Assembly: GCF_034092415.1 (NCBI RefSeq)
Contig: NZ_CP139304.1
Span: 914,001-978,000, forward strand
Direction of reading: 5' to 3'
Length of the DNA stretch: 64,000 nucleotides
Source of the DNA: Prochlorococcus sp. MIT 1341
GTDB lineage: Bacteria > Cyanobacteriota > Cyanobacteriia > PCC-6307 > Cyanobiaceae
The position numbers and the translations under genes are program-made. Below, piece by piece: positions 2,744 through 61,339 of the stretch. The notes beneath the pieces were generated by a model, which was given only the letters and a program-made list of their open reading frames with translations, was not told where the DNA came from and made no database searches. Numbering within the stretch: the first letter of the stretch is position 1; every line of letters begins with the position of its first letter.

Positions 2744-3367
2744 ATGTCCGCATGTCCCAATCTCAATGATGGTCTTCGTACACACCGACCAAGCCCTTCT
2801 CCAGCCCTGGAAAGTCTTGATCTTAAAAGCCATCAAGATAGATTCAAAGCAGTCCCCCTCCATCTAGTAAAACCAGAAGGACAACTTCACATCCACACAG
2901 CTCCATACCGAGGAAGCTTTTCGATGGTTCTAAGTACAGCAATAAGAACTGCAGGACTAGGGAGTCGCGTAATGATTGCCCAATTCTTAAAAGGTGGGGT
3001 CAACCAAGGCCCTGAAGGATCTATAGATCTTTGCGGAAAGCTCTCATGGATAAGGCCTGCAATCGAACGCTGTATCCCGATGCAATCCCCCACAAACAAA
3101 AGGCGAAGCCACTCCGAACCTGAGACGAAAGCAGTCCAAACAATATGGGAAATCTGCAGAAAACACTTATTAAAAGGCGATCTCGATCAACTGGTTCTGG
3201 ACGAAATCGGCCTAGCCATCTCGTTGGGGTATCTAAATAATGAGATTGTGATGGAAGCTCTAGAGCAACGTCCTAGAACGATGGATATCATCCTCACTGG
3301 ACCATCCATCCCTGAGCCAATCATGACGATGGCAGATCAAATTACCGAATTGCGCTTTGGAATCTAA
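2744..3367 (+). CDS. Corrinoid adenosyltransferase (BtuR/CobO)-like protein with degenerate P-loop
   Basis: A 207-residue protein resembling the BtuR/CobO/CobP adenosyltransferase fold: the strand-loop-helix at 46-75, RVMIAQFLKGG at 75-85, and LDQLVLDEIGLAISLGYL near 165-182, which corresponds to the Walker-B-like segment of CobO. Where CobO has a glycine/lysine-rich P-loop (GNGKGKTT type), this protein has HTAPYRGSFS at 51-60 with no lysine. ATP binding may therefore be altered or lost; the real function is uncertain. The stop codon overlaps the start of dcd by one base (TAATG), suggesting co-transcription with dcd and thyX downstream. Confidence 0.65.
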   Translation: MSACPNLNDGLRTHRPSPSPALESLDLKSHQDRFKAVPLHLVKPEGQLHIHTAPYRGSFSMVLSTAIRTAGLGSRVMIAQFLKGGVNQGPEGSIDLCGKLSWIRPAIERCIPMQSPTNKRRSHSEPETKAVQTIWEICRKHLLKGDLDQLVLDEIGLAISLGYLNNEIVMEALEQRPRTMDIILTGPSIPEPIMTMADQITELRFGI

Positions 3368-45125: not shown

Positions 45126-46181
45126 GTGCTTCAAAAAGAATCATTAGTTAAGTTTAAGGAAACAAGGCAATCAAGAGTGGGTACTGACTTAAATTACTTC
45201 TTGAGCACTCTAGTAAGACATGCAGATGGAAGCGTCTATCTCCTACCGGAAGAAGTAATTAGCGATATAAAAGTAAAAGAAAACATCAATGTTATCTTCG
45301 AAAATTTAAATTCCATTATTGAATGGATTCAGGTAGAAAGAACGTTTCTTAAAGGTTGGTATTCAGGCTTAGATCTAAGTATTGACCTGGATGTCCCAAT
45401 TGCAATAGGTATATTGATATTTTCTGGGTTGGCTATTTATATCCTCAAAAAAATATTAGCTAAAAAGAATGCAAGCACTAATGTCAAAGAAATAGAAAAA
45501 GCTGTTGAGTTAGAAAAAGCTGTTGAGTTAGAAAAAGCTGTTGAGTTAGAAAAGGCTGTTGAGTTAGAAAAGGCTGTTGAAATAGAAAATGCTGAGGTAA
45601 TTCAGCCCTTATCTTCAATTCTCAAAAGTAAGAAAAAAGCAATTACCATACCTGACGAAAAGAATCCTCCTCGAAGAGAAAAGAATTCTGTGAATAATAA
45701 AGGATTATCAAATGAGCTGATTGATCTGTACAAACTAACAATAATAAACACCGACACTATAATCATACATGTAATACTCGTTGGACTTTTTCTCTCAGAC
45801 TTAGTACAGCATATCTATGGCTTAATTTTGCAAGTGATGGAATCATATTCACCAAAGCAGTACATAAAAAAACAACAACCTCCAAAAAAAGACATAACAA
45901 TTGGTACAAGTGAATCATCAACACTAAACGGCTCTAATGGATACAAAGGAGGTATCAATTTTATTGAAGATCATGCAACATTAAATTCACTAAATAGTGA
46001 TGTTTATAAGGAAAGGAGAAGGAAGCTAATGAAGCTTACAAATAATCAGCTAAGGAATAAACTGAATGGGGTAAAGCGAATCTCAAGGCTGAGAAAATCC
46101 GAATTAGTGGACCTGATCCTAAAAAGAGAGTTTAGGTATGTGAAAGATTACTCAATTACTATACCGGTAAGAATTAAATAG
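45126..46181 (+). CDS. Membrane protein with EKAVEL repeats, function unknown
   Basis: A 351-residue protein of no family I recognise, starting at GTG 45126. Hydrophobic helices at about 91-108 (DVPIAIGILIFSGLAIYILK) and 208-228, between them five tandem copies of EKAVEL (residues about 124-153) probably forming a charged coiled coil, then a basic linker. The last 50 residues (LMKLTNNQLRNKLNGVKRIS, LRKSELVDLILKREF) look like a SAP/LEM-like or Rho-N nucleic-acid-binding helix-turn-helix. This would be a membrane-tethered DNA- or RNA-binding protein. It opens the accessory region. Confidence 0.6.
   Translation: MLQKESLVKFKETRQSRVGTDLNYFLSTLVRHADGSVYLLPEEVISDIKVKENINVIFENLNSIIEWIQVERTFLKGWYSGLDLSIDLDVPIAIGILIFSGLAIYILKKILAKKNASTNVKEIEKAVELEKAVELEKAVELEKAVELEKAVEIENAEVIQPLSSILKSKKKAITIPDEKNPPRREKNSVNNKGLSNELIDLYKLTIINTDTIIIHVILVGLFLSDLVQHIYGLILQVMESYSPKQYIKKQQPPKKDITIGTSESSTLNGSNGYKGGINFIEDHATLNSLNSDVYKERRRKLMKLTNNQLRNKLNGVKRISRLRKSELVDLILKREFRYVKDYSITIPVRIK
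45495..45584 (+). repeat. 18-bp in-frame tandem repeat, five copies
   Basis: Five consecutive 18-base units, GAAAAAGCTGTTGAGTTA with A-to-G in copies four and five and a diverged end, followed by a partial sixth. All units keep the reading frame, so gain or loss changes the coiled-coil length by six residues per unit. Confidence 0.95.
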
Positions 46182-46187
46182 TTTTAT

Positions 46188-46934
46188 TCAAGGGCATAAC
46201 ATTCCTAAAGCTCCTAATCGATCTTGAAGGGCTCGCCAATTAAATGATCGAGGGTCGATTCTCTCTCCTGATCTATCTACTATCTTGTGAGTAGTTATTT
46301 GATAATAGGGGATATGATACTTTTTCATCCAATCGGTTAAAATCAAGGAAAGTGAATCATATTGTTTTGAACTGTATCCACTGTGAGTAGGGTCATTATC
46401 CTCGCCGTCTAATGGTGTCTCCAAACTAATATGTAGTGCAAAGTTGTTAACAGAAGGTGGCAATCTTAAATTAGTTTGAACAGAATTACCTCTAAAAGAA
46501 GAGTTCCCTGCTCCAAAAGCCCTTTTGAGGGGATCGAGAATCTTAATAATCCTTCCATCCTCTGCAATCAAAACATGGTAACTTGCTTGCTTTAATAGGT
46601 CGGTATGTTTAGTCTTAAATGTTGCTAAGGCTGAGCCAACACCATAAACAGTTTCATGCAGGACGATAAGGGAAGGAAGAGGTTCTAAAGGGTTTCCAAA
46701 AACGTCTTTTGTTGAGCGTGTATCATAATTAGTAGGATGTATATCCTCATATAAAACAAATTTACTCATTCTTCTGTTAAGCCTATTGAGCCTATTTGTC
46801 AAGTGCTTACTAGGAATATTACACTGCCTGTTTAAAAGGTTGGTTCTAGTATTAGCAGCAGGGCTACTCAAATGAAAAGGGAGGAAACTGAGAAAAAGAG
46901 TAATTAGAAGGTTTCTAATGAAAAGTTCGTTCAT
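46188..46934 (-). CDS. Secreted N-acetylmuramoyl-L-alanine amidase (Amidase_2)
   Basis: A 248-residue protein with a signal sequence (about 1-27, LLITLFLSFLPFHLSSPAA) and an Amidase_2 fold. Zinc/catalytic motifs: IVLHETVYG near 88-96, ASYHVLIAEDGRI near 116-128, NNFALHISLETP near 163-174 and TTHKIVDRSGERIDP near 219-233. It cleaves the amide between muramic acid and stem peptide in the periplasm. It sits beside surface-polysaccharide genes and ends 7 bases from the preceding plus-strand gene. Confidence 0.82.
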   Translation of the reverse strand: MNELFIRNLLITLFLSFLPFHLSSPAANTRTNLLNRQCNIPSKHLTNRLNRLNRRMSKFVLYEDIHPTNYDTRSTKDVFGNPLEPLPSLIVLHETVYGVGSALATFKTKHTDLLKQASYHVLIAEDGRIIKILDPLKRAFGAGNSSFRGNSVQTNLRLPPSVNNFALHISLETPLDGEDNDPTHSGYSSKQYDSLSLILTDWMKKYHIPYYQITTHKIVDRSGERIDPRSFNWRALQDRLGALGMLCP

Positions 46935-47100
46935 AAATCAAGAGATAATTAAGTATTTTCTGAGAAAAAGGTATTCATTATCAAATAGTATATTAGAGGA
47001 TAAATTAAAGCAACAGATTTAACATCCTGATTCTAAGTTCTCAAGATTTTCGTCTTACCTTACACCTTGATATCTGTCAATAATTTATAGGAGTTCGAGT

Positions 47101-48198
47101 CTACCGAATCCTAGGCTTGGTTTTATATTTGGATATTAAATTCCGATCTATTGTAGAAATAATAAAAGCAAATGTTTTAACTAGATCTAAACTAATGCTA
47201 ATCAATAATGTGAGGAAAAAAGGAATAAAACCATTCCTAATTATCGGAACTCCTTTGTTCTTTGGTAATAAGATCCCTCTTAGAATAAAGTAGATGGTAA
47301 GTAATGTAAAGACTGTAATTTTGGAGACATGAGGAATATAAAGAACCGCATCTGTATCCCAGCCTGCAAAGCTCGGGTTCCAGCAAGAAGCAAGCCCAAG
47401 CGATAGAACAGCAAAGAATATTATATATATATATCTTTGCTTTTGGTAAATGAGCAAATCACCATAGCTTGCTAAATAATAGTTTGTAAACCATTTTTTA
47501 CATAGCTCTGGGAAATTTCGGCCTATGAGATTTCGGTATTTTAGAGGTGAAGCAGAAGCAACCTTTATTGAACGTTGAAAATATAATGCTCTATTAATCC
47601 ACTCACCATCTTCTCCACATCTAGCTGATGGGATAAAATAGCCTATCTCATTTAACAATGATCTACTGATTAGCGTTCCTGGAACTGTATAAAGTGGGTT
47701 TGAACCATATGTAGAAGCTATAAATGATTTCTCAAATATAGTTTCCCCAATGTATCTGGTTCTACCTAATATACCCTGGTTATCCGACTTATCTAAATGA
47801 GTAAGTGCTATCTCCAACCAATCAACTTCTGGCACTGTATTAACATCAAGAAAAGCAATATAAGAACATTTGGATAACTTAACTCCAATATTTCTAGCTT
47901 CACCAGGCAGTATAATGCTCTCAAAGAAAAGCATATTAGTGGGAGTGTCTATAAGTTTCTCCAATTCGGATGCCTTGTGCAAATATTTCTTCGAGAGATT
48001 ACTTACCACACACACTATCTCTTTGATATATTTTCGGTTGTCTTTAAGGCCAAGCATTAAAGAACGACATTTATCCAGATCATCTGCCAAGCATCCAATT
48101 ACAAGTGATATTCGAGAGCCATAGATTGAATCACCGCTATAGGAGCTAGGTATCAAAGAGTCAAGACTTCGTTTATCGTCTTTAGAAAAAAAAGTCAT
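47101..48198 (-). CDS. Family 2 glycosyltransferase with membrane tail
   Basis: A 365-residue protein. Residues about 25-235 are a GT-A domain (RISLVIGCLADDLDKCRSLM, IAFLDVNTVPEVDWLE with a DxN metal site, GEDGEWINRALYF with the ED acceptor-activating pair), then two or three hydrophobic segments at 265-345. The donor sugar is unknown. The GEAR[N] motif (LPGEARNIGVKLS) is typical of polysaccharide transferases. Confidence 0.8.
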   Translation of the reverse strand: MTFFSKDDKRSLDSLIPSSYSGDSIYGSRISLVIGCLADDLDKCRSLMLGLKDNRKYIKEIVCVVSNLSKKYLHKASELEKLIDTPTNMLFFESIILPGEARNIGVKLSKCSYIAFLDVNTVPEVDWLEIALTHLDKSDNQGILGRTRYIGETIFEKSFIASTYGSNPLYTVPGTLISRSLLNEIGYFIPSARCGEDGEWINRALYFQRSIKVASASPLKYRNLIGRNFPELCKKWFTNYYLASYGDLLIYQKQRYIYIIFFAVLSLGLASCWNPSFAGWDTDAVLYIPHVSKITVFTLLTIYFILRGILLPKNKGVPIIRNGFIPFFLTLLISISLDLVKTFAFIISTIDRNLISKYKTKPRIR

Positions 48199-48346
48199 AA
48201 GTTATATCCTTTCAGCGAAATAAAGTAAAATCTAACAATCAATAATTCTAGCAGCATTTATGCCAGAGCAGACAAGCCGAATCATTCTTTAACCCTATCA
48301 GCTGCTAAAGATATAGAATAAATGCAGTGTTTCATGAGAATAATCA

Positions 48347-49453
48347 GTGAATCGGGAAACCTCATTAAGCCAATTTAAATCTTCAAGGGTACTGATAACT
48401 GGTCATACAGGATTCAAAGGTTCATGGCTTTCACTTTGGCTCTCTGAACTAGGTGCTGAAGTCTATGGACTATCTAATGGGATACCTAGCAGGCCTTCAC
48501 ACTATGAATGCTCGAGTATCAACGAAAGAGTAAATGATATACGAATAGACATAAGAAATCTACCTTCCATTGAGTCACATATCAAAAAAGTTAGGCCAGA
48601 TTTTGTATTTCATCTAGCCGCACAACCTTTAGTGCTCGCCTCCTACAAGAACCCAATTTACACATTTGAAACTAATACCTTAGGAACTATTAATCTCCTT
48701 GAGGCGCTTCGCCAAATTGACTCAAAATGTGTTGCTGTAATTATCACTAGTGATAAATGTTATGAGAATCAGGAGTGGATATGGGGATACAAAGAAACAG
48801 ATCGGTTAGGAGGAGCAGATCCATATAGCGCCTCCAAAGCTGCGGCAGAGATTGCTATAAATTGTTATACCAAGTCCTTCTTATCCAAAGAAGGACCTTT
48901 AAGGTTGGGAATAGCAAGAGCGGGAAATGTCATTGGAGGAGGTGACTGGGGAGAAAATAGACTGGTGCCTGATTGCATGCGTGCTGCCGCAAAAAAAGAA
49001 TTAATTACTCTAAGAAATCCTCATTCAACACGACCCTGGCAGCATGTCTTAGAGCCCTTAAGCGGCTATATCAATCTCGCATTGTCACTGAAAAAGAGTA
49101 ACCAACATCATGGAGAGGCTTTTAACTTTGCGGCAATGCAAATTAATAACTATACTGTTGAAGAGCTCGTTGAAAACATGTCAAATTCATGGCAAGATAT
49201 AAAATGGAATGAAAAAAAATCTTCCCTTCCTTCTCCACACGAATTTCAGAACTTACAATTAAATTGTGAAAAAGCAAGGAGTTTATTGCATTGGGATTCA
49301 GTTTGGGACCTCAAAAATACAATCAGCAATACAGTTAATTGGTATCGACATTTTTATGAAGGAAGGTCTAACGGAATGGAAAGTTTCTCAATAAAACAAA
49401 TCTCGGATTATGTCAATTGCGCGAAGCAAAAATCCTTAACATGGGCATTATGA
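48347..49453 (+). CDS. rfbG: CDP-glucose 4,6-dehydratase
   Basis: A 368-residue short-chain dehydrogenase-fold enzyme converting CDP-glucose to CDP-4-keto-6-deoxyglucose. NAD-binding GHTGFKGSWLS at 18-28, FHLAAQPLVLASYKNP, TSDKCYEN, the YSASKAAAEIA catalytic YxxxK and ARAGNVIGGGDW are the RfbG signatures. It starts at GTG 48347. Its stop overlaps the next gene's start (ATGA), and rfbF is two genes on, so the whole set is one operon. Confidence 0.92.
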   Translation: MNRETSLSQFKSSRVLITGHTGFKGSWLSLWLSELGAEVYGLSNGIPSRPSHYECSSINERVNDIRIDIRNLPSIESHIKKVRPDFVFHLAAQPLVLASYKNPIYTFETNTLGTINLLEALRQIDSKCVAVIITSDKCYENQEWIWGYKETDRLGGADPYSASKAAAEIAINCYTKSFLSKEGPLRLGIARAGNVIGGGDWGENRLVPDCMRAAAKKELITLRNPHSTRPWQHVLEPLSGYINLALSLKKSNQHHGEAFNFAAMQINNYTVEELVENMSNSWQDIKWNEKKSSLPSPHEFQNLQLNCEKARSLLHWDSVWDLKNTISNTVNWYRHFYEGRSNGMESFSIKQISDYVNCAKQKSLTWAL

Positions 49454-49872
49454 GCAGGATAATCAAACAGTCAACGTTGACTTGCATTCGCAATCCTCAA
49501 GGAGACATATTTCATGCTCTCAAGTCAACCGATCGTGAATTCCAAGGGTTTGGGGAAGTTTATTTTTCTCAAATTAATTATGGCTGCATCAAAGCTTGGA
49601 AAAGACACCTGAAAATGACCCTTAATTTAGTATGCCCAGTAGGCAAAGTAAAATTTGCCTTCTTTACAGATAAATTAGGTTATGAGTCTGCAATTATAGG
49701 TAAAGAAAATTATAAGAGGTTAACAGTGCCGCCAGGGGTCTGGTTTGGTTTTCAAGGAATGGAAAGGCCCTTCAGTCTAATCATGAATGTTGCAGATATA
49801 TTGCATGACCCAAAAGAAATAGAGCGAAAGAAACTTGATTCTATGTCATTTCCTACTGAGAGGTTGTCGTGA
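49450..49872 (+). CDS. RmlC-like dTDP-sugar epimerase homologue
   Basis: About 140 residues of cupin-type fold starting at ATG 49450 (ATGA overlap with rfbG; an ATG at 49441 is also possible). It resembles dTDP-4-dehydrorhamnose 3,5-epimerase: RNPQGDIFHALKSTDREFQGFG, INYGCIKAWKRHLKMTLNLV and VPPGVWFGFQG. The catalytic His would be in RHLKM. In CDP-sugar operons such proteins act as 3-, 5- or 3,5-epimerases. The end overlaps rfbF by four bases. Confidence 0.72.
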   Translation: MSRIIKQSTLTCIRNPQGDIFHALKSTDREFQGFGEVYFSQINYGCIKAWKRHLKMTLNLVCPVGKVKFAFFTDKLGYESAIIGKENYKRLTVPPGVWFGFQGMERPFSLIMNVADILHDPKEIERKKLDSMSFPTERLS

Positions 49873-50633
49873 ATGTTGTTCTACTAGCTGGCGGATCAGG
49901 AACCAGACTTTCTGAATACACAAATAATATACCTAAACCAATGATACCCATCGGTAATAGGCCCATCTTATGGCATATTATGCGCCGTTATGCACACTTT
50001 GGCCATAATGAATTCATTGTGGCACTAGGCTATAAATCTGAAATAATTAAAGAGTATTTTGTTAACTATAGAGCATTAAATGCAGATTTTACGATTGACT
50101 TATCAACTGGAGAGTTAGAGGGACACGGATATGATAACAATAACTGGAAAGTAACATTATTAGATACAGGTTTAGATACCATGACGGGTGGTCGACTTAA
50201 AAGGACAAAAAAGTTTCTAAAAAATAAACCATTTATGTTGACATATGGGGATGGCTTATCAGACCTGGATATCAACAAATTGCTTAAGTTTCATACTTCC
50301 CATGGACGCATGGTTACAGTTACTGCAGTAAGGCCAATTGCAAGATTTGGTGAGCTGGAGATAGAGAAAGGGGAAGTCCGAAAATTTCAAGAAAAGCCTC
50401 AAATGAAGGCAGGTTGGATCAATGGTGGTTATTTTATAATTGAGCCCGAATTTCTAGATCTAATAAAAGGTGACAATACAGTTTTAGAAAAAGAGCCCCT
50501 AGAAAAAGCTTGCGAATTGGGAGAATTAATGGCTTATACTCATGATGGATTTTGGCAGTGTATAGACACTAAACGTGATCTTGATTTGTTAACGAACTTA
50601 TGGAAAATTAACCAAGCGCCCTGGATAATTTAA
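49869..50633 (+). CDS. rfbF: Glucose-1-phosphate cytidylyltransferase
   Basis: A 254-residue nucleotidyltransferase making CDP-glucose from glucose-1-phosphate and CTP. The loop LLAGGSGTRLSEYTNNIPKP at 5-24, GNRPILWHIMRRYAHFG, FMLTYGDGLSDLDINKLL (metal DGxxD) and FQEKPQMKAGWINGGYF match RfbF. Starts at GTG 49869, overlapping the previous stop (GTGA); the next start overlaps its stop. Confidence 0.95.
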   Translation: MNVVLLAGGSGTRLSEYTNNIPKPMIPIGNRPILWHIMRRYAHFGHNEFIVALGYKSEIIKEYFVNYRALNADFTIDLSTGELEGHGYDNNNWKVTLLDTGLDTMTGGRLKRTKKFLKNKPFMLTYGDGLSDLDINKLLKFHTSHGRMVTVTAVRPIARFGELEIEKGEVRKFQEKPQMKAGWINGGYFIIEPEFLDLIKGDNTVLEKEPLEKACELGELMAYTHDGFWQCIDTKRDLDLLTNLWKINQAPWII

Positions 50634-51757
50634 TGCAAAAAGAAACAATAAGGCTTTCTAAGCCAATTATTGGTATTGAAGAGAAAAATGCTGTCTTGGA
50701 TGTTCTCTCAACAGAGAGATTAGGGATGGGAGATGTAGTAGAGAAATTTGAAAATCAACTGGGTAAATTGCTAAAAAGGGAGGTTACATGCTGTGTAAAT
50801 GGGACATCTGGCTTGCACCTAGCATTACAAGCTTGTGGAATAGGAGTAGGCGACGAGGTTCTAGTACAATCTATGACCTATGTTGCTAGCTTCCAAGCAA
50901 TATCTGCATGTGGGGCCACACCAATCCCTTGTGATGTAAAAGCGAATTCACTCACGTTGGATGTTGAAGATGTTAAAAGGAAGCTTAATCCAAAATCAAA
51001 AGCAATAATGCCTGTCCATTTCGCAGGAGATGTAGGAGAACTAGATGCAGTTTATGAGTTAGCAAAAGCCAACTCTTTAAGAGTGATAGAAGATGGGGCT
51101 CATGCATTTGGGAGCTCATATAAGAATAAAAAGGTAGGATCTTTTGGGGATATATGTTGTTTCAGTTTTGATGGGATCAAAAACATAACAAGTGGAGAAG
51201 GAGGGTGCGTGGTTTCAAATGACAAAAAGGTTATTAGTCTCATACAAAATGCCAGACTTCTTGGAATTAAAAATGATACTGAAAAACGATTTGGTAACAC
51301 AAGGTCGTGGCATTTTGACGTTAGTAATCAAGGCTGGAGGTATCATATGAGTGACATAATGGCCGCAATAGGTATAGAGCAATTAAAGAAATTGGATTAT
51401 TTCATCAAGAGAAGACGTAAGCTGGCTCGTTTATATGATGCTATCTTTTTGCAAAATGATAAAGTGACTGCCTTTAATAGAAATTATCATGAAGTAGTGC
51501 CACATATATATTCAATACTACTACCAAAAGAAATGAACAGGGACCATCTAAGAAATAAGCTCCTTGATATAGGAATCGAAACGGGAGTACATTATATGCC
51601 AAATCACAAGCTAAGCCTTTATAAAACAAATGAAATCTCTAGCTTAAAAAATACTGAGGAGATCTACCCTAGGCTCATCTCATTACCGCTACATCCAGGA
51701 CTGGAAGAATGTCACATAGAATATATTACATCTGAAGTTAATAAACTCTTAGGATAA
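50633..51757 (+). CDS. DegT/DnrJ/EryC1/StrS sugar aminotransferase
   Basis: A 374-residue PLP enzyme. N-terminal substrate loop LSKPIIGIEEKNAVLDVLST, CCVNGTSGLHLALQACGIG, DEVLVQSMTYVAS, VIEDGAHAFGSSYKNKKVGSF (PLP aspartate) and CFSFDGIKNITSGEGGCVVS with the Schiff-base lysine of DGIK. Together with rfbF and rfbG it would transaminate a CDP-keto-deoxysugar. The lysine argues against an RfbH-type dehydrase, which has histidine there. Confidence 0.88.
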   Translation: MQKETIRLSKPIIGIEEKNAVLDVLSTERLGMGDVVEKFENQLGKLLKREVTCCVNGTSGLHLALQACGIGVGDEVLVQSMTYVASFQAISACGATPIPCDVKANSLTLDVEDVKRKLNPKSKAIMPVHFAGDVGELDAVYELAKANSLRVIEDGAHAFGSSYKNKKVGSFGDICCFSFDGIKNITSGEGGCVVSNDKKVISLIQNARLLGIKNDTEKRFGNTRSWHFDVSNQGWRYHMSDIMAAIGIEQLKKLDYFIKRRRKLARLYDAIFLQNDKVTAFNRNYHEVVPHIYSILLPKEMNRDHLRNKLLDIGIETGVHYMPNHKLSLYKTNEISSLKNTEEIYPRLISLPLHPGLEECHIEYITSEVNKLLG

Positions 51758-51833
51758 GAAAGAACCTCTTGAATGGTCGACTAATTAAGCCTATAAGGCT
51801 CAACTTAGTTTGAAGAGATTCGTTGAAAAGTGA

Positions 51834-53162
51834 TCAGGCAATATCCTGTTCCAAAAGAATCAGTGGATTATAAGATTTAAATTCAATATTAGGAAACTTT
51901 TTAAATTTCAAAAACTGCTTAAGTTTAGTGATGCCAGACGATTCATCTAATACTTCAATGTACTTATTGAATTGGTAAAATATATTCGGACATAAATAGC
52001 AGGAATTTCTATAAATGATAAGCCTATCAACTCCTGAAGTGCATAGTTCTATCGAGGAGCTACTTGAAGAAGGGGATAATATGATTCCGTAAGGATAGTT
52101 CATTAACTTATCAATTATCTGAATTTTAATTTCAATTGAGAGAGTTTCCGAGAGGGTCTCTAAAGTTTTAAGGGATAGGGAGGGGTGAGGCTTATAAAAT
52201 ATTTCCGTATAATTAAAATATTTTATAATCTTACTAACTATTTCAAATGCTGCACTATCTTCCTGTGGCAAATAACTACCTAATATTAGAATCGACTTCT
52301 TATTTTTGTCTGAAAGAAGAGATGACTTTGCAAGTTCAGATATGCTTGTAGAATTTGGTCGTTTCCGAAGAGACCTTATATTTAGCCTATTTAATGGCCA
52401 CTTCATAAATTTATATAGAAAATCATATTGATATTGATTTAAAACTATGAGTTGATTTGGAGAATAGGAGGAGGAGAATTTTATACGCTTATTTTCTGGT
52501 GTCGTAATATTTAAGGCATGTATAAAGCCTTTAGTTGTGATATTATAATCAGATGAGACTCTTATTAAGAGTTTTTCCCATAGCTGCCCTTCATAAGGAA
52601 AGACTATATAAGTTGGATTTATATAAGATAACACCAAAGAATACAAGTTGGTTTGTAGCTCATATTGGCTCCTCAATAAAGAAAAAGGGTTGAAATTCTT
52701 TAAAAGCCATAAAACAGATTTAAGCGGAAAAGTGGAGCTTAAATCTGCAAAATTAATTTCCGAGATTAATTTGTGGTCTCCTTCTTTGAAGAGATAAAGG
52801 CTTATATGATATTTATCAAGCATGGCTAAATAATAAGAAGTTGAATGTTGATAGGAACCAAAATATTTATCAACAATTTTAGAAGGACTATTTGAGATAT
52901 ACGTCAGGCTTATAGGATAAGTAGCTATGAGAGGTAATCTGGGCAATTCACTAACTGAAAATAATTTTTTTGTTCGAAATAAGCTATATAAAAACTTCAG
53001 ATTTAATTGGCAATAAATACCAAGCTTCCTTTGAAGACTTTTCAGGTGCAGGAAATCTTGATTTCGTATCTTTTTAATTGGAACACCCCATTCATAAGAA
53101 GACATACTTACAAGGTTTGTAAGCTCAATTTTCGTAAGTTTGATATAGTCAATTAAACTCAT
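51834..53162 (-). CDS. Probable surface-polysaccharide transferase
   Basis: A 442-residue protein of no family I can name securely. It has no signal peptide, KPHPSLSLKTLETLSETL and the serine-rich ILSPSSSSSSIELCTSG, the arrangement seen at the nucleotide-sugar site of GT-B capsule transferases. KSILILGSYLP may be the start of the second Rossmann domain. Codon use is AT rich. Its first seven codons lie inside the direct repeat that also holds the 3' end of the cyclase gene, so it was once directly downstream of that gene. Confidence 0.55.
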   Translation of the reverse strand: MSLIDYIKLTKIELTNLVSMSSYEWGVPIKKIRNQDFLHLKSLQRKLGIYCQLNLKFLYSLFRTKKLFSVSELPRLPLIATYPISLTYISNSPSKIVDKYFGSYQHSTSYYLAMLDKYHISLYLFKEGDHKLISEINFADLSSTFPLKSVLWLLKNFNPFSLLRSQYELQTNLYSLVLSYINPTYIVFPYEGQLWEKLLIRVSSDYNITTKGFIHALNITTPENKRIKFSSSYSPNQLIVLNQYQYDFLYKFMKWPLNRLNIRSLRKRPNSTSISELAKSSLLSDKNKKSILILGSYLPQEDSAAFEIVSKIIKYFNYTEIFYKPHPSLSLKTLETLSETLSIEIKIQIIDKLMNYPYGIILSPSSSSSSIELCTSGVDRLIIYRNSCYLCPNIFYQFNKYIEVLDESSGITKLKQFLKFKKFPNIEFKSYNPLILLEQDIA

Positions 53163-53695
53163 AGCGTCTCAGTTTGAATAACTAGGGATCATCAAGTAAT
53201 CTATTAAAAGCAGACCGAATAAGCTCTCGATCATCTATAGTATATATACTTGGTTTAAACAAATCACTTAATAATATAATCCTTAGTAATCTATTCTGCC
53301 CTTTCTTGTCAAGCAATGCTTTCTTCACCAGATTCTCTAGCAAATAATCCTTTGATTTGTAAGAAAGTTCTTCGATAAATTTTGGGCTAATACGAATTGG
53401 TAAATTAGAGGAAGAAAGAATATTTGTTATTTCTTCCTCTAATTGAGTCCCATAAATAATGTCGCCCATAAAAGCGGAAGCAATCAAACCCAAAGATACA
53501 GCTTCTCCGTGTCTAAAATACTCTTCATTAGTGAGGTCTTGAAGACTCTCTATTGAATGAGCAGAAGTATGGCCAAGGTTCAAAAATAGGCGTTTTGACT
53601 TCTCGGTAATATCGTCTTTAGTGAAATGTAGTTTGTAGATAATTGAATCTTCAATGATTTGTTCAACCAACTCCTCTTCGTATTTCAAATTAGGA
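53142..53695. repeat. 554-bp direct repeat, copy A
   Basis: Copy A is identical to 55737-56290 (offset 2595) except for about three substitutions, near 53238, 53410 and 53562. It contains the last 171 codons of the cyclase gene, the 20-bp gap and the first seven codons of the transferase gene (minus strand). It ends abruptly at both sides. Confidence 0.97.
53182..53695 (-). pseudogene. Truncated dehydroquinate-synthase-like fragment
   Basis: The fragment is open for 171 codons from 53695 but holds only the C-terminal part of the cyclase at 55777-56931, without the NAD-binding N-terminus. The three base differences change GHTF to GHTS in the metal-binding motif, SSYN to SSSN and YTTD to YTID, so it is both incomplete and drifting. 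A TTG at 53688 is only 15 bases after the TAA of the methyltransferase gene upstream, so a non-functional peptide could still be made. Confidence 0.9.
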
Positions 53696-53703
53696 TCTAA
53701 TAA

Positions 53704-54498
53704 TTATAAAGTATCTTTTGTTCTCAATGAATACATTGGATCTGATAGTGTATTTTTTATATTGAAACTAAATATCGTTTTTGAACCTAATGATATTGGA
53801 GACTCAATCAGAAAACCTCGAGTATTAGACAAAGAATTATATTCAATTATTGCTTTTTGCTCTCCTAGTTCCGGGTGGTTTCCTGTAGCCCAGATGTCAT
53901 CAAAAATATAAGTTGACATTGGCAAAGCAATCTTATCTAGCCATTTTAAAATTTGAATTGTACTAGAGTATAAATCTGCATCTATAAAAATAATTGAAGG
54001 AGGAAACCTACTCATTTCTATTGCTAATTCTTCCGTAAGAGATTCGGAGTAAAAGCCTTTTATATACTTGGCCTTAATACGGTACGAACTAACATTCTTC
54101 TTTACTTCTTCTAAACTCCCAAAAAACTGACCTTTTTGCCAAACAGGATCATTATGATCAAGCTCACTCTTAGGCAATCCTTCGAATGAATCAAATGAGA
54201 ATAATGCTAGACTATCTAGCTCTGGGTAAATAATAGAAAAGAATCTCTTTAGATTCCCCATCGTTATTAATGAGTTACCTTTAAAAGTTCCAAATTCATA
54301 GTAGTTTCCAAGTTCTCGAATTCTATTTTTCTTCCTAGCTATATTTGCTTGAAGTGTTAATGCATTACGAAAATACCACAGTTGAGATATTGCATGAAAA
54401 CTTCTATTCAACTGGAACGTTGGGAATGGGAACCAGAATGAAGGTGAAATAAGTTGCTTAAAAACTGCTAGAAATATTTTGACATTGGTTACAATCAC
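53704..54498 (-). CDS. TylF/MycF-family O-methyltransferase
   Basis: A 264-residue SAM-dependent methyltransferase. Features: ELGNYYEFGTFKGNSLITM (SAM loop), FSFDSFEGLP, FIDADLYSSTIQIL and YIFDDIWATG (metal aspartates), typical of the macrocin/TylF family that methylates sugar hydroxyls or related acceptors. The N-terminal 25 residues are hydrophobic. It lies in the cassette between the 554-bp repeats, in opposite orientation to the oxygenase. Confidence 0.8.
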   Translation of the reverse strand: MIVTNVKIFLAVFKQLISPSFWFPFPTFQLNRSFHAISQLWYFRNALTLQANIARKKNRIRELGNYYEFGTFKGNSLITMGNLKRFFSIIYPELDSLALFSFDSFEGLPKSELDHNDPVWQKGQFFGSLEEVKKNVSSYRIKAKYIKGFYSESLTEELAIEMSRFPPSIIFIDADLYSSTIQILKWLDKIALPMSTYIFDDIWATGNHPELGEQKAIIEYNSLSNTRGFLIESPISLGSKTIFSFNIKNTLSDPMYSLRTKDTL

Positions 54499-54820
54499 AA
54501 CAGATTAGGAAATCTACCTCAGCACCATACACTTAAGAACTAGTTCATTCAAGTTAGGTAAGAGCAAGTTGAAATATAGTTATTTATTTTTGTGGTTAGT
54601 TTTGAATATATATTCTTCTTAGCCGAGAAACATGTTATAATATTTCGATGGCTCAGTCATTATAAATTAATCATAAGCCTTTTTTGATACTAGATTTTAA
54701 TGGTCTAATTACCTAGCTACTCTATATGAAATCCACTTACATGTGCTGTCAAGTATTGCATGTTTAGCATGAAGCGTAAGTTTTCTATATATTCTATGAG
54801 TTTAAAACCTATCCTCTCTA
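54499..54820. other. Divergent promoter region inside the cassette
   Basis: A 322-bp very AT-rich gap between the methyltransferase and oxygenase starts. TGTTATAAT at 54633-54641 is a good extended -10 on the plus strand, pointing to the oxygenase gene. No coding frame or RNA was recognised otherwise. Confidence 0.45.
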
Positions 54821-55702
54821 TTGTACATAATGGAATCGTTACAGCCGATAAAAATGCTGAAAGATAACTGGTCAATTGATCCTTTTCCGTATGCTATAAT
54901 TGATAATTTCCTACCATCAGATGAATTTGAATCATTAAATTATGAATTAAATCAAACTAGCAATCTAATACAACGTCAATTTGAGACTCCTTTAGAACGC
55001 AAAGCAATATATACAAATATTTTAAGCAAAGAAAATGCCCAAGGGTTAATATACAGAATGGCTTCCGATCAGATTAAAGATATAATTTCTCAACAAATTG
55101 GTTTACTAGATATAGTCTCAATGGGTGAAAAACTTAATTTTGCAGGTTACTCCCCTTATCATATAACTAGGAACGAAGGCTATTTAGGTTCACATGTTGA
55201 TCACTCAAGTATTGAGAACGGTAAACTTAGACATATAGCAAATACCATTTACTATGTAAGCAGTAAATGGGAAAAAGGCTGGGGTGGCCAAACTATTCTA
55301 TTTTCCCGAAATGGTTTTTGTGAAAAAGTACTAATAGATCCAATTCCGAATAGACTGATAGTCTTTATACATACAGCAAATTCATTTCACGGTGTTAGGA
55401 AGTATTACTCACCTGAGAATATAGAAAGACGAACTTTTTATCATGATTACTACGTAAAAGAATCAAAAATCAATTTAGTCATGCAAAATATAAATATAAA
55501 TATAAATTCAAAACTAGTTCACTCCCTTCACCCTACAACTTTTATTCCTTTCTTCCCCTTCGGGATATTTCACCTAAACTACAAAGCGGTTTTTAGCTTT
55601 AAAAATCTAAATTATATACCAACTTATATTGTTTACTTGGTGAATCGTTATTTTGGAACCCGTATTAGTTCAATTAGAAAAATGCTAAATATATTTGGGT
55701 AG
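54821..55702 (+). CDS. 2-oxoglutarate/Fe(II)-dependent oxygenase (prolyl-4-hydroxylase type)
   Basis: A 293-residue protein. The iron triad is readable as HVDHSSIENGKLRH (His-x-Asp) around 127 and NSFHGVRKYYSPENIERRTF with the second histidine and the oxoglutarate arginine around 188. WGGQTILF fits the P4Hc fold between them. The C-terminal 70 residues, with two hydrophobic stretches, are additional. It could hydroxylate a sugar or lipid precursor. In the cassette, opposite to the methyltransferase. Confidence 0.8.
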   Translation: MYIMESLQPIKMLKDNWSIDPFPYAIIDNFLPSDEFESLNYELNQTSNLIQRQFETPLERKAIYTNILSKENAQGLIYRMASDQIKDIISQQIGLLDIVSMGEKLNFAGYSPYHITRNEGYLGSHVDHSSIENGKLRHIANTIYYVSSKWEKGWGGQTILFSRNGFCEKVLIDPIPNRLIVFIHTANSFHGVRKYYSPENIERRTFYHDYYVKESKINLVMQNINININSKLVHSLHPTTFIPFFPFGIFHLNYKAVFSFKNLNYIPTYIVYLVNRYFGTRISSIRKMLNIFG

Positions 55703-55736
55703 AAGATTTATATGGTATCTATCAACTGCTTCACTA

Positions 55737-56290
55737 GATATAGTCAATTAAACTCATAGCGTCTCAGTTTGAATAACTAGGGATCATCAAGTAATCTATT
55801 AAAAGCAGACCGAATAAGCTCTCGATCATCTGTAGTATATATACTTGGTTTAAACAAATCACTTAATAATATAATCCTTAGTAATCTATTCTGCCCTTTC
55901 TTGTCAAGCAATGCTTTCTTCACCAGATTCTCTAGCAAATAATCCTTTGATTTGTAAGAAAGTTCTTCGATAAATTTTGGGCTAATACGAATTGGTAAAT
56001 TATAGGAAGAAAGAATATTTGTTATTTCTTCCTCTAATTGAGTCCCATAAATAATGTCGCCCATAAAAGCGGAAGCAATCAAACCCAAAGATACAGCTTC
56101 TCCGTGTCTAAAATACTCTTCATTAGTGAGGTCTTGAAGACTCTCTATTGAATGAGCAAAAGTATGGCCAAGGTTCAAAAATAGGCGTTTTGACTTCTCG
56201 GTAATATCGTCTTTAGTGAAATGTAGTTTGTAGATAATTGAATCTTCAATGATTTGTTCAACCAACTCCTCTTCGTATTTCAAATTAGGA
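55737..56290. repeat. 554-bp direct repeat, copy B
   Basis: Same unit as 53142-53695. Here the left end leaves a seven-codon remnant of the transferase gene (MSLIDYI followed at once by a stop), while the right end continues into the intact cyclase gene. This fixes the original order as cyclase then transferase. Confidence 0.97.
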
Positions 56291-56931
56291 CCATAATTTT
56301 GAGATTCAATTATGCGTTTAAGTAGAGGTCCTTCCTTCAGTAATGAAATTTTTATAACTTCAGCAAAACCTGCAAAAAAATCTCTTGCATGAAGGGTGGA
56401 AAGAAATTTAGTAAAAATAAAAGTGCCTTCTGGATGTTTGTAGGTACCACATGAATTTATATGCTTGGTCGTATTTACGGCTGTTTTACCCCCAATAGAA
56501 GAGTCCGTCATAGCCAAAAGATTAGTAGGAAAATGACAAAGTGAAACTCCACGAAAATAAATTGTTGAGAGGAAGCCGACTATATCTCCGGTTACACCAC
56601 CACCAACTGCAATAAATAAAGTATCGCGTTGAACATTATGATGAACTAACCAATTAAGTAAATGATCAATAGTCAAAAGATTTTTTGAATGTTTACCTGG
56701 CTCCATAACCTTCTTCAGAAGAGGTATTGAATACTTCTCTGAAAGTTGAATAAATAAATCCTTAAGGTTAGAAAACGCCTTAGTGTTAAGAACATAGGAG
56801 TCTATAAATAGAACAATAGATGATCTTTTAAGGATTAATGCTTCCAATCGTTCAGTAAAATCATTTAGATCCTTAGATACGAAAATATCATATTGATCTA
56901 TTGTATTTTCGTAGGCTTTTATCACTCTCAT
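55777..56931 (-). CDS. Dehydroquinate-synthase-like sugar phosphate cyclase
   Basis: A 384-residue protein of the AroB/sugar phosphate cyclase superfamily. It has GGGVTGDIVGFLSTIYFRGV and FPTNLLAMTDSSIGGKTAVN around 107-148, AGFAEVIKISLLKEGPLLKR (metal glutamate and lysine), LNLGHTFAHSIESL and RHGEAVSLGLIASA (zinc histidines). The metal set is intact. It is unlikely to be the housekeeping AroB, since it sits in a surface operon between a KdsB-like gene (4-base overlap) and a transferase; a cyclitol precursor from a seven-carbon sugar phosphate is an inference. Confidence 0.8.
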   Translation of the reverse strand: MRVIKAYENTIDQYDIFVSKDLNDFTERLEALILKRSSIVLFIDSYVLNTKAFSNLKDLFIQLSEKYSIPLLKKVMEPGKHSKNLLTIDHLLNWLVHHNVQRDTLFIAVGGGVTGDIVGFLSTIYFRGVSLCHFPTNLLAMTDSSIGGKTAVNTTKHINSCGTYKHPEGTFIFTKFLSTLHARDFFAGFAEVIKISLLKEGPLLKRIIESQNYGPNLKYEEELVEQIIEDSIIYKLHFTKDDITEKSKRLFLNLGHTFAHSIESLQDLTNEEYFRHGEAVSLGLIASAFMGDIIYGTQLEEEITNILSSYNLPIRISPKFIEELSYKSKDYLLENLVKKALLDKKGQNRLLRIILLSDLFKPSIYTTDDRELIRSAFNRLLDDP

Positions 56932-57722
56932 GGTATAGAAGACTCTGTATTTAAAATTGTTTTCGCCATCTCAAAGTCTTCTAAAGTGTCAATAGAGAAC
57001 GTAGAAGTTGGTGAATAGGGAGATAAAATATGTATATCTGCTTCTATAGCTCTCATAAGCTCAATATCTTCTAATTTCTCTAGATGTGACTGAGGTGACT
57101 GAGAATAGTAGATGAGGGCAGAACGATTAAATCCTATTACTGATAGATGTTTTTTGTAAGAGCTTGGGACTAAATCAGGTGATGGTTTATGAATGTAAGG
57201 TATAGGATATCTGCTCATATATAAAACTCTGCCCTCTTTGTCAGTAACTATCTTAACTGTACTTTCTCTAGAGGCTTCATCTTCACCAATAATTTGATGA
57301 GGAACAACTATAACTGGATCGGATTTATGCTTATCCATAAGTTCTTCAAGACTATTCAAAACCAGCTTAATCATGCTCGAAGACACAAAAGGTTCATCCC
57401 CCTGAACATCTATTATAAATTTTGCATTAATTTCATATCGGTCAAGACATTCACTAATCCTTTCTGTGCCATTCTTATGGCCCTCACTTGTAAGTAAACA
57501 TGGTATGTTCAGATTATTTAGGTGTCTTTGAATTTCCAGGGAATCAGTACAAACAAAAATAGAAGAACTATCTATTCTCAAATCAGAAAGGGCTTTATAA
57601 GTATTTTCATATACCATTTGAATTAATGTCTTATCACCACTCAATACTCGTAAAGCTTTTTTAGAAAGTCGCCTTGAATTTAATCTACAAGGTATAAGAA
57701 CCACAAGCTCTTTTCTATCCAT
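56928..57722 (-). CDS. KdsB-like CMP-sugar cytidylyltransferase
   Basis: About 265 residues from ATG 57722 (MDRKELVVLIPC), with an SD GGAGG ten bases upstream and an 8-base overlap with the SDR gene. CTP-transferase signatures: LIPCRLNSRRLSKKALRVLS, VCTDSLEIQRHL, DVQGDEPFVSSSMI and YMSRYPIPYI. This is the CMP-Kdo synthetase fold; the substrate need not be Kdo. It overlaps the cyclase start by four bases (ATGA). Confidence 0.82.
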   Translation of the reverse strand: MDRKELVVLIPCRLNSRRLSKKALRVLSGDKTLIQMVYENTYKALSDLRIDSSSIFVCTDSLEIQRHLNNLNIPCLLTSEGHKNGTERISECLDRYEINAKFIIDVQGDEPFVSSSMIKLVLNSLEELMDKHKSDPVIVVPHQIIGEDEASRESTVKIVTDKEGRVLYMSRYPIPYIHKPSPDLVPSSYKKHLSVIGFNRSALIYYSQSPQSHLEKLEDIELMRAIEADIHILSPYSPTSTFSIDTLEDFEMAKTILNTESSIP

Positions 57723-58446
57723 TGGCTGTCCAACCTCCATCCACTGTGAACACTTGAGCTTGAATATATGATGCATCCTCACTCAAAAGAAACTTAATCA
57801 CTTTGGATATTTCAGAACACTCTGCCCATCTAGCTGATGGGATTCTACTTAAAGTCCAATCATATAGTTGATGATTATCCTTCTTAAATTTTTCCTCATA
57901 TGATGAGCGTGTAAATCCTGGTGAGATTGCATTAAATCTACTTTCTGGAAATCTTAGAGAAATAGATCTGATAAGTGATTCAGAAGCAGATTTAGTCGCC
58001 CCATAGTCGTCAAGATCGATAAAACCTGTAGAAGCTACAATAGAAGAAACATAAACAAGAGATATCCCTTTAATGATATTTTTATCAATCAGTACTTTTA
58101 TAAGAGTTCTTAATGCAAAGTAATTAACTTTCCAAAGATAAGATAGTCGTTCAGCCTTGATCCTTTCAAGGTTCTCACGACAGCGAACTCCTGCATTTAT
58201 TACAAACTTATTAGGGTATGAATAGAATTTCTTATAGCTTAAACTAATTGCTGAAGTGAGAACTTTCTCTTCTGAGCTATCTCCTTTTATTAATAATAAC
58301 CTATCAGCAAAGGGTTCTAACTTTTCAAAGTCCTGTATATCAGAGCGATATATTCCGACAATGCTACTTCCTGGTTCACAAAGAAGAACATCGATTAGAT
58401 TTCTCCCAATTCCCTTGCCAATACCAGTTACAAAAAATATTGTCAT
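57715..58446 (-). CDS. Short-chain dehydrogenase/reductase
   Basis: A 243-residue SDR. GIGKGIGRNLIDVLL at the N-terminus binds NAD(P), INAGVR equals the NNAG motif, YVSSIVASTGFIDLDDYGATKS contains the catalytic Ser and YxxxK-type Tyr-Lys (YGATK), and INSPG-like AISPGFTRSS follows. C-terminus INKV..VDGGW. Overlaps the epimerase gene by four bases and the KdsB-like gene by 8. Confidence 0.85.
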   Translation of the reverse strand: MTIFFVTGIGKGIGRNLIDVLLCEPGSSIVGIYRSDIQDFEKLEPFADRLLLIKGDSSEEKVLTSAISLSYKKFYSYPNKFVINAGVRCRENLERIKAERLSYLWKVNYFALRTLIKVLIDKNIIKGISLVYVSSIVASTGFIDLDDYGATKSASESLIRSISLRFPESRFNAISPGFTRSSYEEKFKKDNHQLYDWTLSRIPSARWAECSEISKVIKFLLSEDASYIQAQVFTVDGGWTANG

Positions 58447-59420
58447 CGGCAGCTATAATACTCGTTGCTTGCAATTGATTCGATCATAGTTTTTATACCA
58501 TACTTAAGATCTATTTCTGCTTCTATACTTGTAATGCTAATTAGTTTAGAGGCATCCCCTAACATATTGTCAATATCTCCAGGTGTACCCTTTTTTGTCT
58601 CATAGGTAATGTGATTACCTAATAACATTTGAATATTTTGAATTACCTCTAAGACTGTATATTTTCTGCCAGTACAAATATTTAATACCTCACCAAAAGT
58701 CTTGGGATTCCCCTCAATGGCCCTCAAAAATCTAAGTACATCATAAATATGAACAAAATCTCTACTCCTATCAAGACTCCCTTTGATAATAATATGTTCT
58801 TTTTCTAAAGCCTGCGCAAGGTATATAGAAAGCATTCCTTGGCTTAAGTTTGATAGATTTTGTCCTGGACCATATATATTAAATAAACGTAAGCTAGTGG
58901 TCTTGACTCCAAGCTTATGAAATTCCTTGAGATAATCTTCACTAGCTTTTTTCCCAATTGCATAAAAATTAGATCCATCCCTATTTGAATTCTCTGATTT
59001 AGGCATGGGTGGGTTCCCACCATAAACAGACATAGAACTTGCATATATCAAATGGGAGTCTGAATTTATACACTTTTCCAATATTCTAACTGTAGATTCA
59101 GTGTTAGTCCTTAGATCATATAAAGGATCTTTATATGATATCTCAACAGAACTTTGTCCGGCAAAATGATATATCAGATCATAAGGTTCATCAAATAGAA
59201 AACCTATATCATCTTTACCACAATCGAGTTGATGAAATTCTGCCGAGTCAGGGATATTTCTCAGGTCACCGGTTTTCAGGTTATCTACAACACTAACGGA
59301 AAATCCCCTAGACAAAAGATCTCTCACTATATGGCCTCCGATAAAACCGGCACCCCCCGTAACTAGAGCTCGCGATATTGCCACCAATAAAATGTTAACT
59401 GGATAGAAATTATAAAACAT
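58443..59420 (-). CDS. NAD-dependent sugar-nucleotide epimerase/dehydratase
   Basis: A 325-residue extended SDR. NAD-binding VTGGAGFIGGHIV around 20-32, YHFAGQSSVEISYKDPL, YASSMSVYGG and YAIGKKASEDYL (YxxxK) then LRLFNIYGPGQNLSNL match UDP-glucose 4-epimerase-type enzymes. The first codons to about residue 12 are unusual and a TTG at 59387 or GTG at 59384 are alternative starts. It is the first gene of the minus-strand surface operon. Confidence 0.85.
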   Translation of the reverse strand: MFYNFYPVNILLVAISRALVTGGAGFIGGHIVRDLLSRGFSVSVVDNLKTGDLRNIPDSAEFHQLDCGKDDIGFLFDEPYDLIYHFAGQSSVEISYKDPLYDLRTNTESTVRILEKCINSDSHLIYASSMSVYGGNPPMPKSENSNRDGSNFYAIGKKASEDYLKEFHKLGVKTTSLRLFNIYGPGQNLSNLSQGMLSIYLAQALEKEHIIIKGSLDRSRDFVHIYDVLRFLRAIEGNPKTFGEVLNICTGRKYTVLEVIQNIQMLLGNHITYETKKGTPGDIDNMLGDASKLISITSIEAEIDLKYGIKTMIESIASNEYYSCR

Positions 59421-59819
59421 TACGCATTTTCGATGCCTTATTAAGACATCTTGTTCTCATTTAACATCAATCCAACCGTTGAATCATGAAACTGAACTGC
59501 CAAAATCTTCATTGATTCAACCTTTTATCCTAAATTGACTTAAATGTATAAGTGACTCCTATAAAACTCTTATCTAATCTTATTTTAGTTCAATATTGTA
59601 CTCTAAAAATTGGAATCAAACTGATCTAGATTTGGCTTGTGATGAACTGATTCCTCTACTGCTCCTACAAGCTCATAAGGAACTAAATGAATAGTTTGAT
59701 ATTGTTTGCTGAGTCTTATGCCATGTCTCCTAGCAGAGTCAAAGGAGCAATTCAAAAACTTGGTGTACTAATAGAACAACATCAGATATTTGCGGATAAA
59801 ACTCATGCTAAATAGTCGA
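59421..59819. other. Gap between surface operon and ssrA, with a short coding relic
   Basis: The first 200 bases are AT rich with no coding signal. Two overlapping short frames follow: one ending ACDELIPLLLLQAHKELNE at about 59695 and a 42-codon one from ATG 59687 (separate entry). The promoter of the epimerase gene must lie near 59421-59500. Confidence 0.5.
59687..59815 (+). CDS. 42-residue frame next to ssrA, probably a relic
   Basis: Starts MNSLILFAESYAMSPSRVKG and ends at TAG 59813-59815, just where the tmRNA coding piece ends on the other strand. Composition is protein-like and helical, but it is short, overlaps the preceding fragment by an ATGAATAG and has no recognised family. A fragment of a mobile-element or phage gene is possible. 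Confidence 0.3.
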   Translation: MNSLILFAESYAMSPSRVKGAIQKLGVLIEQHQIFADKTHAK

Positions 59820-60134
59820 GCACGGCCTGAACATCCAAATCCAAGTGAGTTTGAGGGGCCTCACAGCCCCCATGGATCATTTGGGTGATAAGGCTGATCT
59901 AACCCCATCTCCCCTAAGGGTCAGGCAGCAACAGGGGCTGACTGACGGGAGAAACGAACGATGTTGTTCGCTGTTACGTATTTGCCCTAACCGAGCAGGC
60001 TTCAGTCACCCTCCTGATACCCCGTCGAAACCATTACAGCCCCAAAAAAATTTATGGAGCTGAGCGGAATCGAACCGCTGTCCGAGATATTGGTGTGAAT
60101 CACCTAGTTCATCAAATGATGAACTAGGTGATTC
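59820..60134 (-). ncRNA. ssrA: Circularly permuted two-piece tmRNA
   Basis: On the minus strand the acceptor piece comes first: hairpin, then T arm ACAGCGGTTCGATTCCGCT and acceptor strand CAGCTCCA ending at 60055 (CCA not encoded). After an 11-base spacer of mostly T, the coding piece starts at 60043 with GGGGCTGTAATGGTTTCGAC, whose first seven bases pair with CAGCTCC. GGGGTAT can pair with ATATCTC of the acceptor piece (helix P2). The tag frame at 59971-59921 encodes ANNIVRFSRQSAPVAA then a stop. Ends at 59820 and 60134 are approximate. tmRNA with SmpB rescues stalled ribosomes. Confidence 0.92.
60097..60134 (-). repeat. 18-bp hairpin at the 5' edge of the tmRNA acceptor piece
   Basis: Arms 60097-60114 and 60117-60134 are exact reverse complements around a two-base loop. 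In the transcript it precedes the P2 strand ATATCTC directly, so it may protect or define the 5' end of the acceptor RNA, or act as a terminator for transcription coming from the other side. Confidence 0.75.
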
Positions 60135-60214
60135 TGGCAGGTTAGTGATTGTTTTGCTCTAGTTTGCTCAGATACAAATTCGGCAAAAGCAGTGGATCTG
60201 CTTTAGTGGACTGC

Positions 60215-61339
60215 ATGAGAGCATTAGCAGTACTCCCACAGGGATTAGAAGCGCTTGGTGCCGAAGAACTCCAATTATTAGGGGCCAAAAATGTTAATCA
60301 ATTAAGAAGGAGTGTCTCATTTACAGCAGACCCAGCCTGCTTATACAAAATTTACTTGCGTGCTCGCTTACCATTCAGAATTTTAAGAGAAATTGCTCGC
60401 TTTAATTGCAATAGTCCCAATACTCTGTATCACAAAATACAAACAGTTTTTGATTGGGAAAAATGGCTACATCCTTCTCTAAGCTTCAGAGTGGATGTTT
60501 CAGGCAAAAACAAAGGACTCAATCATACTCACTACACAGCATTGCAAGTTAAAAATGCTCTGGTTGACCTCCAACGAAAGATGTGGGGTGAGCGATCATT
60601 AATCAATACACAATCGCCTGACCTTTGTCTTCATCTTCACTTGGGAGAAATTGATTCAATCCTCAGTCTAGATGGATCACAACATAGTCTTCATAAACGA
60701 GGTTATAGGTCTGCCATGGGAGTTGCGCCAATTAAAGAGAACTTAGCTGCAGGATTAATCAAATTAAGTGAATGGAATAATTCAACGCCATTAATTGATC
60801 CAATGTGTGGGTCAGGAACTCTGCTAATTGAAGCAGTTTCCATGGCAATTGATTTAGCTCCAGGTATCTCTCGTAACTTGATAGTAAAAAAATGGGCTGA
60901 TTTCAACTTGAAAATATGGGAAGAAGAAAAAATGAAAGTTTTGGTTAAAAAATATCCCCAACCATCCTTAGCAAAGGTTATTGGTATTGAAAAGAACCCA
61001 GAGATAGCACTTCAAGCAAAAGCAAATATAAAGGCAGCAGGCCTAGAGAAATATATAACCATTATAAATAAGGATTTTGACCAGATTAATCTTCCTGATT
61101 CTGCAGGTTTAATTGTATGCAATCCACCCTATGGGAAAAGAACTGGACAAAATGAAGATCTATCTATTCTATATAAAAAACTTGGATGCTTTCTTAAACA
61201 AAAAGCATCCGGCTGGCAATTTTGGCTGCTTTGTGGTGACCGTTCTCTAAGCAGTTTCTTAAAGCTTAAGTGCTCCAGGCGTATACCCATTAACAATGGA
61301 GGCATTGATTGTCGTTGGCTTAAATACGAGATCAAGTAG
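60215..61339 (+). CDS. RlmL-like THUMP-domain RNA methyltransferase
   Basis: About 374 residues from ATG 60215 (MRALAVLPQGLEALGAEEL). An N-terminal ferredoxin-like/THUMP region (RARLPFRILREIARF, about 60-150) and a Rossmann domain with DPMCGSGTLLIEA and the NPPY motif (IVCNPPYGKRTG) as in N2-guanine RNA methyltransferases (RlmL/K, TrmN types). The likely target is 23S rRNA G2445. The 80-bp gap from ssrA is where both promoters must lie. Confidence 0.85.
   Translation: MRALAVLPQGLEALGAEELQLLGAKNVNQLRRSVSFTADPACLYKIYLRARLPFRILREIARFNCNSPNTLYHKIQTVFDWEKWLHPSLSFRVDVSGKNKGLNHTHYTALQVKNALVDLQRKMWGERSLINTQSPDLCLHLHLGEIDSILSLDGSQHSLHKRGYRSAMGVAPIKENLAAGLIKLSEWNNSTPLIDPMCGSGTLLIEAVSMAIDLAPGISRNLIVKKWADFNLKIWEEEKMKVLVKKYPQPSLAKVIGIEKNPEIALQAKANIKAAGLEKYITIINKDFDQINLPDSAGLIVCNPPYGKRTGQNEDLSILYKKLGCFLKQKASGWQFWLLCGDRSLSSFLKLKCSRRIPINNGGIDCRWLKYEIK

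Follow-up and report, generated by a model that had tools for sequence, protein, structure and literature searches.

We propose that a surface-glycan operon of Prochlorococcus sp. MIT 1341 was probably split by a one-time insertion of a cassette encoding a methyltransferase and an oxygenase, which duplicated 554 bp of its target. The structure is a real, well-preserved and fairly ordinary insertion scar in a variable surface island whose type is already known. Positions below are those of the window, the whole stretch of 64,000 nucleotides that was analysed.

Two near-identical repeats enclose a methyltransferase/oxygenase cassette

The direct repeat consists of copy 1 (53142-53695) and copy 2 (55737-56290), 554 bp each at an offset of 2,595 and both read on the minus strand. 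A preliminary description of this DNA had counted about three differences between them, and direct comparison over the 554 bp gives exactly three (copy 1/copy 2: 53237 A/G, 53408 G/T and 53564 G/A). Identity collapses beyond both ends, where a gapped search adds about 10 bp, to 53705/56298, with a 2-bp gap. The 64-kb window and the 20 kb to its left and right contain no further direct repeat of at least 60 bp, and no second copy of the repeat or of the cassette exists elsewhere in the genome (a 1.94-Mb single contig, 99.98% complete). Thus, the 554-bp repeat is far beyond chance.

As described previously, each copy contains the 3' part of a cyclase gene, an intergenic gap and transferase codons 1-7 (MSLIDYI); the gap, given earlier as 20 bp, measures 19 bp (53163-53181). 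In copy 2, the 3' part of the intact cyclase gene (55777-56931, minus strand) is followed by the gap and the seven transferase codons, and the very next codon is TAG. In copy 1, an orphan cyclase 3' end (53182-53697, minus strand), a probable pseudogene, precedes the gap and the start of the intact transferase gene (51834-53162, minus strand). The complete cyclase thus lies upstream of the cassette, and the truncated cyclase end and the complete transferase lie downstream. The cassette itself (53696-55736) comprises 2,041 bp with 31% GC and, in agreement with the earlier annotation, encodes a methyltransferase and an oxygenase, with matches to Pfam PF05711 and PF13640. The full minus-strand order is epimerase, SDR, KdsB-like cytidylyltransferase, intact AroB-like cyclase, seven transferase codons with TAG, oxygenase (on the opposite strand), methyltransferase, truncated cyclase end and intact transferase.

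Genes of the operon and of the cassette

The intact cyclase is an AroB-like sugar-phosphate cyclase of 384 aa that matches PF01761 and PF24621, and TIGR01357 and TIGR04425 below their cut-offs; relatives with 48-49% identity occur in two genomes. Upstream of it, the operon continues on the minus strand (56928-59420) with genes for a KdsB-like cytidylyltransferase (56928-57782), an SDR (57715-58446) and an epimerase (58443-59420). The presence of these three genes beside an AroB-like cyclase suggests a CMP-activated cyclitol or unusual sugar.

The transferase-like surface-carbohydrate protein (442 aa) has a weak match to TIGR04326 (2.1e-4, far below the cut-off), no relative at E<=1e-6 among 400 family genomes (one genome per species) and no PDB relative by sequence. 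Its single-sequence fold prediction was useless (mean pLDDT 34), and a scan of genome contigs returned one distant match, from Campylobacteraceae.

Of the two cassette genes, the first encodes a TylF-type methyltransferase of 264 aa (53704-54498, minus strand; PF05711, 2.8e-8). It has no relatives at E<=1e-20 in the 400 family genomes; relatives with 30-37% identity occur in other cyanobacteria of the class, and the short loci around these distant relatives show no linked oxygenase of the cassette kind. The second encodes a 2OG-Fe(II) oxygenase of 293 aa (54821-55702, plus strand; PF13640, 1.2e-9), with relatives at 55-57% identity in two genomes from two other genera and at 43% in a third. 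The 55-57% relatives sit among sugar-biosynthesis genes.

Judging from gene orientation, the 322 bp between the two divergent genes (54499-54820) probably form the promoter region for both; promoter-like sites there are fewer than in shuffled sequences, not above chance. Since the methyltransferase gene now precedes the transferase gene, which an oppositely oriented gene separates from its old operon, the transferase would probably be transcribed from this divergent region of the cassette.

The operon lies in an island that matches the replacement type

Phycobiliprotein genes number only two in the host genome, which also has nine genes of the PsbB/PsbC/Pcb type. Few phycobiliprotein genes together with an expanded Pcb-type family is what we take to be the low-light Prochlorococcus pattern, and the host looks like a member of that group.

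The operon occupies part of a low-GC surface-glycan island (46188-59829), bounded by an SAP-like gene (45126-46181) and, at the right edge, by a permuted cyanobacterial tmRNA gene (59830-60144, minus strand). GC content falls to 31-38% over about 44-60 kb of the window. In three genus mates, the SAP-like gene and tmRNA/RlmL enclose about 5-15 kb of largely different genes. One of these genomes, G003, shares the left half of the island at 59-79% identity, including genes for a GT2, a CDP-glucose dehydratase, a small isomerase-like protein, a cytidylyltransferase and an aminotransferase, and has a different right half. The variable glycan region as a whole spans 45126-61339, and its left-flank SAP-like gene is poorly conserved. 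At the left edge of the island, a gene that by eye resembles an amidase gene (46188-46934) has a 55% match in G001 only among the three genus mates.

No recombinase or transposase was detected by Pfam and NCBIfam scans of the proteins at 47.1-59.4 kb, both cassette genes included (the ORFs at 46188-46934 and 49417-49872 lay outside the scan). Neither is there a partial copy of the tmRNA end at the far border, the best match to the tmRNA region elsewhere in the window being 14 bp. With no recombinase in the scanned proteins and no tmRNA attachment duplicate, we rejected a tycheposon or another tyrosine-recombinase element.

The island matches the replacement flexible genomic islands described for surface glycans in aquatic bacteria (PMC4033161), which likewise hold different glycan genes of similar function at the same position among relatives, with low GC and, here, no recombinase among the scanned proteins. 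It differs in that we compared species within one genus rather than strains, and in having the internal insertion-duplication as an extra feature. In Methylophilaceae, such islands lie beside tRNA/tmRNA genes (PMC10872708).

A probable single insertion at the cyclase-transferase boundary

When the outer flanks are joined through one repeat, the product is an intact 384-codon cyclase gene, 19 bp, and an intact 442-codon transferase gene. Restoration of both reading frames supports the view that the two genes were formerly adjacent, and the proposal of the preliminary description that the operon once ran directly from cyclase to transferase stands. No remnant of the cyclase 5' or transferase 3' part is recognisable within the cassette. 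Consequently, with restored genes and a remnant-free cassette, the simplest history is one insertion that duplicated 554 bp of its target. Our model suggests that an operon of epimerase, SDR, CMP-Kdo-synthetase-like, AroB-like cyclase and transferase genes received the 2-kb cassette at the cyclase-transferase boundary, and that the 554-bp duplication would have split the operon while leaving both cyclase and transferase whole.

The likeliest routes would be a single crossover between the target and a circular or concatemeric donor that had the 554 bp, or template switching. Integration of a circle by a single crossover is possible and compatible with the structure; the same outcome would be expected of template switching or of a staggered break whose long overhangs were filled in. 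A weak AATTAT match adjoins the methyltransferase end and hints at microhomology, although in DNA this rich in AT the hint counts for little. In Campbell-type insertion-duplication, known from plasmid-integration mutants, the donor enters by a single crossover, and recombination between the copies can in principle reverse the event. The present structure resembles that type in that a direct copy of the target lies at each end of the insert, with one intact neighbouring gene attached to each copy, and differs in that no circular donor, vector or replication gene is seen. A composite transposon or IS insertion was rejected, as there is no transposase among the scanned proteins, both cassette genes are enzymes of other families, and the target duplication is 554 bp, not short.

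Searches of phage and viral collections did not reveal a donor of the cassette. Viral contigs held no relatives of any of the four proteins, and phage records gave weak matches only, for the methyltransferase and the oxygenase. The uninterrupted cyclase-transferase pair that the preliminary description had suggested seeking in relatives was likewise not found among the family genomes, in which the transferase has no relative. The four-gene order ending in the cyclase recurs at a different genomic place in one genome (G390, locus L017; 48-59% identity), where the operon stops at the cyclase and is followed by neither this transferase nor the cassette.

An alternative that we consider unlikely, yet the most credible of those weighed here, is that the arrangement was imported ready-made by homologous island exchange from another clone, the insertion-duplication having occurred there earlier. 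Islands of the replacement type have been proposed to be exchanged between clones by homologous recombination (PMC4033161), and the different right half in G003 is in keeping with this. However, import would shift the event elsewhere and leave its nature unchanged, and no result here separates it from a local event. We regard as improbable a larger tandem duplication, comprising the repeat, the transferase and a downstream cassette, that was later reduced by deletions. This history would likewise yield two repeat copies with the cassette between them, but it requires about three events; moreover, the genome has no second cassette copy, and the cassette retains no transferase 3' or cyclase 5' sequence. 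Thus, we retain a one-time insertion-duplication as the best reading.

The truncated cyclase copy looks like a decaying remnant

All three differences between the repeats are missense (F258S, Y310S and T367I), and F258S falls in an otherwise invariant GHTF motif. The two nearest homologues carry F, F and T at residues 258, 310 and 367. From this comparison, the intact cyclase appears to keep the ancestral state (an aromatic residue at 310), and all three changes would have arisen in the truncated copy, that is, in copy 1. The probability that three of three changes are missense is 0.02-0.08 under purifying selection (omega 0.1-0.2), versus 0.49 without selection. With all three missense changes on its side, the truncated copy looks like a decaying remnant, which fits better than two functional alleles brought together, although three events are few. 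It also does not appear to have been kept identical to its partner, an impression of absent homogenisation that rests on the same three differences.

One of these changes may have a mechanistic signature. Within its cyclase part, copy 1 contains a perfect palindrome at 53403-53444 with 15-bp arms and a 12-nt loop, whose counterpart in copy 2 (55998-56039) has one mismatch. This is the only quasipalindrome in the repeat with arms of at least 12 bp, and only two single substitutions would make its arms perfect, of which the change at 53408 is one. The chance that three random substitutions would do so is about 6 in 1,662, or 0.004, reckoned post hoc. The change fits the pattern of quasipalindrome (template-switch) correction. 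As in quasipalindrome-associated template-switch mutation (PMC7202029), a one-base change turns an imperfect inverted repeat into a perfect one; in contrast to that system, the process here would be read from one substitution seen in evolution, with no assay. The palindrome was rejected as a recombination site, since it lies in the middle of the repeat and not at a junction.

Reversible switching is very improbable

The preliminary description predicted reversible, recombination-driven switching of the surface genes, in which excision and reintegration of a circle through the 554-bp repeats would toggle the methyltransferase and oxygenase and reconnect the transferase. The repeats are indeed long, direct and near-identical, excision would give back an intact operon, and the locus sits in a surface-glycan island. 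However, the three uncorrected differences, all in the truncated copy, speak against frequent exchange, the scanned island proteins include no recombinase, and no replication gene occurs among the cassette ORFs. Since no replication gene is evident on it, a 2.6-kb circle, once excised, would disappear as cells divide, and recombination is therefore expected to give mostly one-way loss. In addition, seven island-bearing loci from relatives show no comparable repeat save one 100-bp, 87% identical pair. We therefore do not uphold the prediction and consider such a switch very improbable. The pair in question, at 1199-1298 and 3158-3254 of locus L018, is a direct repeat in the surface island of another family genome.

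A little more doubtful still is that the repeats act as a standing RecA-dependent excision switch, which would produce, within each population, a minority of cells changed in surface glycan and phage sensitivity, selection keeping both states. The arrangement also recalls the 3'-end cassettes of meningococcal tpsA/tpsC, where 5'-truncated gene copies lie near an intact gene, recombination by circle or sister-chromosome exchange was proposed, and many cassettes have decayed (PMC3848433). Unlike those cassettes, the truncated copy here carries no alternative 3' end, and recombination would yield no variants beyond the three missense changes. Least probable of all, an assembly artefact that duplicated one repeat, although long repeats are able to mislead short-read assembly, is opposed by the three differing sites, the distinct unique flanks and the assembly of the genome as a single contig that is 99.98% complete.

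Age and meaning of the insertion-duplication

A mutation rate of 3.5e-10 per site per generation is available for HLII, another Prochlorococcus clade (PMC10837832). At that rate, the three changes would take about 1.5e7 generations to accumulate in 554 bp free of constraint, with wide error, and the estimate falls if the copies already differed on arrival. Laboratory bacteria commonly lose direct repeats of such length through recombination, at rates that can be measured. Through homologous recombination between the two copies, the cassette could be lost and the operon rejoined, a change that would mostly be irreversible. Long persistence despite the 554-bp repeats would thus suggest either that the cassette is under selection or that repeats recombine rarely in this lineage.

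At this locus, a surface-glycan island has been caught gaining genes while both junctions are still preserved, which shows that a part can be acquired with no obvious integrase. The frequency of recombination between direct repeats in Prochlorococcus could also be gauged here by a natural experiment: stability of the cassette between its 554-bp repeats would mean either that such recombination is rare or that selection maintains the cassette.
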